DNA of 64,000 nucleotides from Thiohalorhabdus sp. Cl-TMA. GTDB lineage: Bacteria > Pseudomonadota > Gammaproteobacteria > Thiohalorhabdales > Thiohalorhabdaceae. Where the stretch lies: positions 62,001-126,000 of the forward strand of contig NZ_JBGUAW010000004.1 of assembly GCF_041821045.1 (NCBI RefSeq), read 5' to 3'. This document shows positions 34,091-54,815 of the stretch, in pieces (position 1 is the first letter of the stretch; each line of letters opens with the position of its first letter). The notes under the pieces are model-generated. The model was not told the origin of the DNA. It searched no databases and was given only the letters and a program-made list of their open reading frames with translations. Made by a program: the position numbers and the translations under genes.

Positions 34091-34103
34091 GATAACAAGG
34101 CGA

Positions 34104-34217
34104 TGTAGGAGCGGCCTCCTGGCCGCGATGCGCAGCCTTCCGCCGCACAGGCGGAAGGCTGCGCTCTGTCGTCGTCCGGGGCTCATTGGGTCGCGGCCGG
34201 GACAGCCGCTCCTACAC
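34104..34217. repeat. REP-like inverted pair (GTAGGAGCGG type)
   Basis: TGTAGGAGCGGC...GCCGCGA on the left is inverted as TCGCGGCC...GCCGCTCCTACA on the right. A perfect 15-bp hairpin (arms at 34130-34144 and 34150-34164, loop GCACA) sits between them. The outer motif matches REP sequences common in gammaproteobacterial genomes. It occupies the htpG-acnA gap and could terminate or stabilise transcripts. Confidence 0.75.
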
Positions 34218-52326: not shown

Positions 52327-52490
52327 TTTGAACCGCCAGGGGCGCCAAGAACGCCAAGATTAACGTGGAAAAATCCTGTAGCCGCTTATTGCCTATAGCA
52401 GGCGGGACTGCGCCATTTTTCCCGGATTATAGGGCCGGCCTAGTCCCTGTTCTTTTTGCTTGGCGTTCTTGGCTTCTCGGCGTTTTCTCA
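52326..52490. repeat. CGCCAAG-type interspersed repeat, copy C (inverted ends)
   Basis: Between converging fetB and DUF3501 genes. The left end has CGCCAAGAACGCCAAG at 52343-52358; the right end has its complement CTTGGCGTTCTTGGC at 52459-52473. The 15-bp core GCCAAGAACGCCAAG is identical in both arms. The 100 bp between shows no gene. Confidence 0.7.
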
Positions 52491-52497
52491 CGCCGTC

Positions 52498-53079
52498 TCA
52501 ATCGAAATCGTTGGCCAGCTTCTCGTGCAGGAGCTCGGGCACGGTCACCTCGATCTGACGCTTTTCATGGTCGATCCCCATGTGGACGGGGCTGCCCGAT
52601 TTCCAGGCATCCACCATCTCCGGGGCCAGCTCGAAGCGCATGAAGTGGACCGTGGAGGTCTTGTCCGGGGTGGAGCGGTCCAGATCCTCGTCGGCATGGG
52701 CGTACGCCTTGTCGTGGCCGTCCACCCGTACCCATACCTGGTGCTCGACCCCCACCAGCTCCGCCAGGCGCTCCTGGCGCTCGGCCCGGTCATCGTACTG
52801 GATCATCAGGGTGGCCTTGAGGTTGGAGCCGTCCGGTATCAGCGGATTGTAGACGTCCAGCTCGTCCTGGAGCTCCTCGGGCTTGAACAGCCGCTCGGCC
52901 CGGGCCATCTCCTGGACCTGATACCACATGGTGTCGCGATCCTCGAAGAATAGAGTGATGTGGCCGTCCAGATCCAGGCGTCTACCGGCCTTGTGGTCCT
53001 GGATCCGGCCCTGGATCTCCTTGCGCTGCTTTTCGTAGTCCTCCAGGGACAACAGCTCCTGCTGGGTGATTGCCTGCAT
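52498..53079 (-). CDS. DUF3501 family protein
   Basis: A 193-residue DUF3501 protein: QQELLSLEDYEKQRKEIQGRI at the N-terminus, LDGHITLFFEDRDTMWYQVQEMAR and ELDVYNPLIPDGSNLKATLMIQYDD, and VHFMRFEL near the end. The family is found next to rubrerythrin and heterodisulfide-reductase-like genes, as here, which points to peroxide defence, but no biochemical role is proven. The protein is soluble with no Cys pairs. It lies downstream of the 177-bp palindrome. Confidence 0.88.
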   Translation of the reverse strand: MQAITQQELLSLEDYEKQRKEIQGRIQDHKAGRRLDLDGHITLFFEDRDTMWYQVQEMARAERLFKPEELQDELDVYNPLIPDGSNLKATLMIQYDDRAERQERLAELVGVEHQVWVRVDGHDKAYAHADEDLDRSTPDKTSTVHFMRFELAPEMVDAWKSGSPVHMGIDHEKRQIEVTVPELLHEKLANDFD

Positions 53080-53160
53080 GGGAATCCTCCATGTCCGGTT
53101 TCGCCCCGTCGGGACGACTCAGTACAGAACCGCCCGGCAGCCAAGGCAGCGGGCTCCGCC

Positions 53161-53337
53161 CTAGTGCGCCGGGGCGGAAATCCTATTCCAGGTTTTCATC
53201 AGGAATCCGGGAGGCGGGGCAAGGTCGCAGGGCGACTGAAGGGATGTCCGGAGGACAGGGTCCCCTTGGAGCCCGGAGACCTTGCCCCGCCTCCCGGATC
53301 CTTCAGCAGGCCGGGAATTTCCGCCCCGGCGCACTAG
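53161..53337. repeat. 177-bp palindromic element
   Basis: A near-perfect inverted repeat. The outer arms start with CTAGTGCGCCGGGGCGGAAA and end with the exact complement TTTCCGCCCCGGCGCACTAG (21 bp matched in total). A second 20-bp perfect pair (CCGGGAGGCGGGGCAAGGTC and complement) is nested inside, and a small TGTCC/GGACA hairpin is at the centre. The right CTAG provides the TAG stop codon of the Fe-S gene read leftward. Confidence 0.85.
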
Positions 53338-54674
53338 GCTTTCTCCTCCAAGCCGTAGGCCATCCGCAGCAGGGTTAGGGGGTGGGTGGGCGGCTCCTCG
53401 GTCTCCAGGCCCTGCTTGATCTGGGTGCCGGCGATGGGGCAATCGCTGGCGTAGAAATCCGCCTCCGCCTCCCGCACCCGCCGGAACAGCGGCTTGCCGA
53501 TCTCCATGGACTTCTCGAACCACTCCACCTTCACGCCCCAGGTACCGTCGTGGCCGGAGCAGCGCTCGAACGCGGCCACCTCCGTATCCGGAATCAGCTC
53601 CAGCATGCGCTGGGTCTGGGGGCCGATGTTCTGGACGTGCTGGTGGCAGGGCCGGTGGTAGGCCACCTTGCCCAGCCCCTCTTGGAAATCGGTGCTCAGC
53701 AGCCCTTCACGATGGCGCTGCATGAAGTACTCGAAGGGGTCGAAGACCCGTTTCGCCACCTTCTGGACCCGCTCGTCCCCGGGCGCCACGTTGCCGTACT
53801 CCTGGCGGAACATCAGGGCGCAGGAAGGGACCGGGGCGAGGATGTCCCAGCCCTCGTCCACGAGGGCCTCCAGCTTGGGCAGGTTGGCGTCCTTGGCGGC
53901 GGTGACCGATTCGAAGTCCCCCAGCTCCAGGCGGGGCATGCCGCAGCACCGCTCGCCGTCCACGAAGCGCACGGGGATGCCGTTGTGCTCGAGAACGGCC
54001 ACCAGGTCCCGGCCCAGCTGCGGGATCTGGTAGTTCACGTAGCAGGTGCCGAAAACCGCCACCTTGCCGGTGGTCTCCGCGCCCGGGACCGGTTCTGGAT
54101 TCGGCCCCCGATAGCGCTTCCGCCAGCTCGTGAAGGTCCGGGAGGCGTACTCGGGCAGCTCGCGGTCCCGGTGCACGCCGAGCGCCTTCTCCAGGCCCGC
54201 CCGCAGCGGCTTCTGGCGGTTGGCCCAGTTCACCAGCGGCGCCACCCCGGGCCGGGCCGCCACGCGGCCGAGAGTGTCGGTCTGGGTCAGGATCTTGTCG
54301 CGGAGGGAAGGCTCGCCGTTCCGGTACTGGATGGCCTTGGCCCGCAGCATGAGGTGGGGGAAGTCCACCTCCCACTCGTGCGGCGGCACATAGGGACACT
54401 TGGCCATGAAGCACATGTCGCAGAGATAGCAGCGATCCACCACCTGGAAATGGTCTTCCCGGGTGAGGCTGTCCACCTCCATGGTCTCCGACTCATCGAT
54501 GAGATCGAACAGGGTGGGGAAGGCCTTGCACAGCGAGAGGCACCGCCGGCAGGTGTGGCAGATGTCGAATATCCGGTCCATCTCCTGATGGAGGGCATCC
54601 GTGTCCCAGAAGGATGCTTCCTCCCACTTCAGGGAGTGCCGCTGCGGCGCCTTGGAGGCTCCCTCTTCCGCCAT
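53334..54674 (-). CDS. heterodisulfide-reductase/GlpC-like Fe-S oxidoreductase
   Basis: The ATG at 54674 with AAGGAGA gives 446 residues. Two 4Fe-4S ferredoxin-like clusters are marked by [15 protein letters not shown] (about 40-54) and [16 protein letters not shown] (about 84-99). Two CCG-type domains follow ([14 protein letters not shown]; the second with [12 protein letters not shown] and CSGHDGTWG). The layout matches glycerol-3-phosphate dehydrogenase subunit C and HdrD-like proteins, but GlpA/GlpB are missing and the gene sits between rubrerythrin and DUF3501. It may pass electrons to the rubrerythrin. The stop lies in the palindrome. Confidence 0.88.
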
Positions 54675-54815
54675 CCGCGTCTCCTTGGATTGGGCCGGCA
54701 TGCGCCGTGCCGAGCGCCTGCCGAGGTGCGGGGTCGGGCGTTCCGCTCGTTACGCGGGCCGAAAAATCAGGCGCTGAGGGCCCATGCCAGGACGCCCCAG
54801 CGCACCGGGAGAATT

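Follow-up and report, generated by a model that had tools for sequence, protein, structure and literature searches.

Among the closest described systems are RUP of Streptococcus pneumoniae, a ~100-bp non-autonomous repeat with a TA target and IS630-Spn1-like ends, and the small repeats of the Correia/NEMIS and ERIC types, which mostly end in TA and some of which form long hairpins near genes (PMC2229807). IS630 elements themselves, members of the Tc1/mariner group, duplicate a TA target as a rule, and a preference for CTAG is indicated by the title of a work cited there (PMC2170065). The family described here has CTAGTG... terminal repeats and TA at its ends in common with IS630 elements, whereas the element in the window (the whole 64-kb stretch of DNA analysed) carries no transposase gene. 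It differs from RUP in sequence and host, in being GC-rich with nested arms and a conserved asymmetric core, and in that its partner transposase was not found in the assemblies; with the Correia/NEMIS and ERIC-type repeats, no sequence match has been established. REP/BIME repeats offer a further point of comparison, as inverted REP-like repeats flank four family copies, whereas the window copy has IS630-like ends and no REP repeats as arms. On sequence grounds, the best reading is a new family of IS630-type MITEs, its newness being judged against published kinds of element.

The window element is a palindrome located between a gene for an Fe-S protein and a DUF3501 gene (Table 1), and it is real and far beyond chance. 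Its outer arms are perfect over 22 bp, while the inner arms extend over 29 bp at 93% (spanning 53205-53299) and include 22 perfect base pairs; a preceding sequence-only reading had recognized the perfect arms but made them slightly short, at 21 and 20 bp. That reading also described CTAG on both sides and a very stable hairpin on either strand, and both descriptions hold: CTAG lies at 53161-53164 and 53334-53337, and the predicted RNA folds reach -134.5 kcal/mol on the minus strand (z = -10.9) and -136.3 kcal/mol on the plus strand (z = -10.2), that is, ~-135 kcal/mol and ~10 SD beyond shuffled sequences, with 0 of 200 shuffles as good in either case. Inverted repeats with perfect arms of at least 14 bp within 250 bp are few in the window, and the palindrome is the sole place where two of them are nested. 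The 171-bp body has no capacity to encode a transposase. No Rfam model reached its gathering score in the seven loci searched, and the sub-threshold matches in 53100-53400 were mostly to microRNA-precursor models, as would be expected of any long hairpin. A second, different palindrome (GCCAAGAACGCCAAG type; 52344-52473; fold -70.6 kcal/mol) occupies the gap behind the DUF3501 gene.

Table 1. Features of the palindromic element and its flanking genes, in window positions.
Feature	Position	Strand	Remarks
DUF3501 gene, downstream of element	52498-53079	-	PF12007, E 7e-69
Outer arm (terminal inverted repeat of IS630 type, plus flanking CCTA)	53160-53181		
Left TA of CTAG target, putative target duplication copy 1	53162-53163		CTAG ends and IS630 TA rule (PMC2170065)
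Element body, 171 bp	53164-53334	-	GTGCG...CGCAC; core reads 5'-3' on minus strand
Inner arm, perfect 22 bp	53205-53226		
Conserved asymmetric core	53227-53277	-	GGCTCCAAGGGG...CCCTTCAGTCGCC
Inner arm, other side	53278-53299		
Outer arm, other end	53317-53338		
Right TA, putative target duplication copy 2	53335-53336		With 53334, makes up the Fe-S stop codon TAG
Fe-S protein gene, upstream of element	53334-54701	-	CCG cysteine-rich domain, PF02754

The inner part of the palindrome recurs throughout its own genome (G000). A covariance model built from 12 of the 21 copies, which match it by construction, returned 16 strong loci in G000 and five in a congener (G001) at E <= 5.2e-8, four of the G000 copies and all five in G001 being independent of the model building; a second congener (G002) gave no match better than E 0.28. 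The core pattern was present in two of the 56 genomes searched, own genome included, namely G000 and G001, and the family looks confined to the genus. In a scan of a named genome collection, which may omit records of the genome that the window comes from, a single Streptomyces stretch contained the core pattern without the family arms and was taken as a chance occurrence. A hairpin that evolved locally, with no mobile history, is scarcely credible: template switching is able to create hairpins (PMC8794818), but the 21 dispersed copies sharing the core refute such an origin, and IS630-type ends and the absence of the element in congeners also stand against it. The sequence-only reading had named a lack of other copies and an identical sequence in all relatives as the signs of a local hairpin, which is not what the genome and its relatives contain, and its suggestion of a small mobile palindrome is borne out by the dispersed copies, their presence or absence between species and the IS630-type ends.

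At each of three occupied sites that were compared between species, the congener lacked the element. At the Fe-S/DUF3501 junction, where 254 nt separate the Fe-S stop from the DUF3501 start in the window, only G002 offers a clean empty site, of 25 nt; the junction in G001 (222 nt) likewise lacks the element and carries other repeats, one of them similar-looking to the palindrome at 52344-52473. Insertion of the element accounts for the odd gap between the two genes. The sites corresponding to two other copies, L067 and L059, are empty in G000, the former with a TGA stop and the latter with 19 nt between two convergent genes. Flanks at the three sites lacking the element are too diverged to show a single CTAG.

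The Fe-S gene stops at the TAG inside the right CTAG of the palindrome, and the palindrome had been proposed to supply this codon. Under TA target duplication, this is correct for the G, which belongs to the element, but not for the T and A, which are target bases. Reconstructed on the same assumption, the element-free site reads GCC TAG GGC, with GCCTAGGGC as the predicted empty allele; since this site already contains GCC TAG, the stop probably preceded the insertion. The Fe-S protein would have kept its last codon because the element starts with G, so that TA plus G restores TAG. In G001 and G002 the Fe-S protein ends at the same alanine codon, followed by TGA; because both congeners have TGA, we infer the pre-insertion TAG target and do not see it directly.

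Copy ends, read by eye, connect the family to IS630. The best-kept copy in G001 (G001:C14:167598-167774) has CTAGTGTCCTGTCGCAGAAATT at both ends, and both this copy and the window copy are flanked on each side by TA at CTAG; the TA flank is absent in some of the 21 copies, and several ends are decayed or unrecognised. With one mismatch allowed, the CTAGTGTCCTGTCGCAGAAATT end was found in three of 369 genomes of the class, namely G000, G001 and G279, the last belonging to another gammaproteobacterial family and being the only one outside the genus. There, an end of this type bounds a 365-aa IS630 transposase (DDE_3, PF13358, E 1e-21), the two ends of the element reading CTAGTGTCCTGTAAC(AG/CC)AAATTCG. 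The stop of this transposase gene (L057:57-1154) is itself the TAG of the terminal CTAG of its own element. Relatives of the G279 transposase gave matches on 685 plasmid records, and CTAGTG... ends at CTAG occur in five of the six IS630 relatives fetched from these records; in the sixth, from a Vibrio plasmid, no CTAGTG... ends were found. The G001 copy matches the G279 ends at 19-22 of 24 positions. The window outer arms match them at only 14-16 of 24, which counts against the IS630 reading, the two sharing the initial CTAGTG and the final AAAT but differing in the middle; the IS630 link of the window copy thus runs via the G001 copies and the plasmid IS ends.

No transposase with matching ends was found in the draft assemblies of G000, G001 and G002, and a partner element in the same genome is no strict requirement for a MITE. 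Several candidate partners were rejected: the sole DDE_3 gene in G000 (G000:C16) has different ends, and G001 and G002 have no DDE_3 gene; and among the loci found with the G279 transposase, L089 and L090 were read by eye as another family, while L091 is related to IS630 but carries different ends. We regard it as very probable that the element is a MITE with IS630-type terminal repeats, inserted at the CTAG of the Fe-S stop by a transposase acting in trans. A transposase-less element, comprising 171 bp and a duplicated TA, with its outer arms serving as terminal inverted repeats, would have been pasted into the TA of that CTAG.

The arms of each copy change together. Inner-arm mismatches average 1.6 of 17 within a copy and 4.1 of 17 between copies (20 of 21 copies; arms aligned with shifts, L083 left out), and none of 20000 permutations reached so low a value, although the permutations ignore subfamily relatedness. 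In an alignment of 12 copies, 16 of 31 predicted pairs show changes on both sides that preserve pairing. Compared with L085 and L067, L078 has its centre inverted: when flipped, it matches them at 110 and 120, as against 44 and 60. Both homogenised arms and an inverted spacer have been reported as traces of template switching (PMC8604942, PMC8794818), and G-U-like mismatches, flanks included, number 40 in the sense of the core strand and 51 in antisense. Because arm homogenisation, the inverted centre and the lack of a G-U strand bias fit template switching, a DNA process is favoured over RNA selection as what keeps the arms complementary: template switching would homogenise the arms and invert the centre while preserving their pairing. 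The core presents a different pattern. Across 18 copies (L083, L085 and L086 left out), many core columns are 0.89-1.0 identical, whereas arm columns stand at ~0.5 and the outer flanks at ~0.25-0.4. As the core is conserved despite unpaired loops, which homogenisation should erase, this pattern points to a constraint of some kind on the core.

Conservation of a core with unpaired loops, far stronger than that of the arms, also speaks for a possible but unlikely alternative, in which transposition explains only the origin of the hairpin and an RNA role at 3' ends (stabilising, RNase III cutting or attenuation) explains its retention. Placement agrees with this alternative in that copies sit behind genes: with genes called by our own codon-usage script and not by a standard gene finder, ten of the 21 copies lie between convergent genes, eight behind a gene in the direction of the core, one against it and two in unclear contexts, while the gene junctions in the window comprise 30 co-directional, nine divergent and eight convergent cases. 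Convergent sites are, however, uninformative on strand, the orientation bias among informative copies is small (eight versus ~2), and purging of promoter insertions would yield the same placement. The G-U mismatches, moreover, are not biased to the core strand, and neither a terminator-like nor a sigma-70-like promoter site was found in 52900-53500, the palindrome lacking the hairpin followed by a T run that defines an intrinsic terminator. A cut in DUF3501 expression by the hairpin, put forward in the sequence-only reading, is a hypothetical effect.

Under the MITE reading, placement may follow from the target itself. CTAG is rare in the window, with 35 sites seen against 70 expected from a Markov model and 189 by composition; eight of the 35 are stops, 14 are intergenic and 13 lie inside genes. 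Among the 21 copies, eight retain at least one TAG terminus (by eye), and in five a terminal TAG is the stop of a gene (L058, L059 at both ends, L067, L069 and L074), this role being doubtful in L068 and L086. A special targeting of stop codons was rejected, five of eight TAG-ended copies being not clearly above the eight stops among 22 harmless CTAG sites. With stops making up eight of these 35 sites, CTAG targeting together with the purging of harmful insertions may suffice to explain copies behind genes and at stops.

The ends of the family are not uniform. In four copies on C4 the core is bounded by inverted REP-like repeats, a name that we presume from the motif, instead of IS630-type ends, and L069 is REP-like on the left and IS630-like on the right. 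REP-like repeats are dense in G000:C4:198709-229258, a stretch that contains three of the four copies with REP-like bounds. Elsewhere, a REP-like hairpin in the window (GTAGGAGCGGCC..., 34095-34180) adjoins a strong GC-rich hairpin, and a 49-bp palindrome consisting of the outer ends only, without the core, was found in the region of G001:C8:164080 (L052). The core could on this account be the mobile or selected unit, with the outer arms as exchangeable shells (IS630-like, REP pairs or others), a reading that draws on the replaced ends on C4, the mixed ends of L069 and the outer-ends-only palindrome. We nevertheless consider it decidedly unlikely, as no consistent boundary or duplication was seen by eye around the core, and as REP repeats are common in G000 and G001 (66 and 30 matches), those around the core could be later or neighbouring insertions.

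The less ordinary features of this family are its well-conserved centre and the joint change of its arms. There is a slim chance that the core is a selected 3'-end module carried in varied mobile shells, IS630-type or REP pairs, whose arms are rewritten by template switching and which insertion at CTAG stops spreads behind genes without harm to proteins; if so, the hairpins of this family would retain a common shape while their sequences change. The copies form a natural bacterial set for testing, on DNA alone, template switching against RNA selection in long hairpins, and the same set could be used to test whether the CTAG preference of IS630-type elements lets them settle harmlessly at stop codons.
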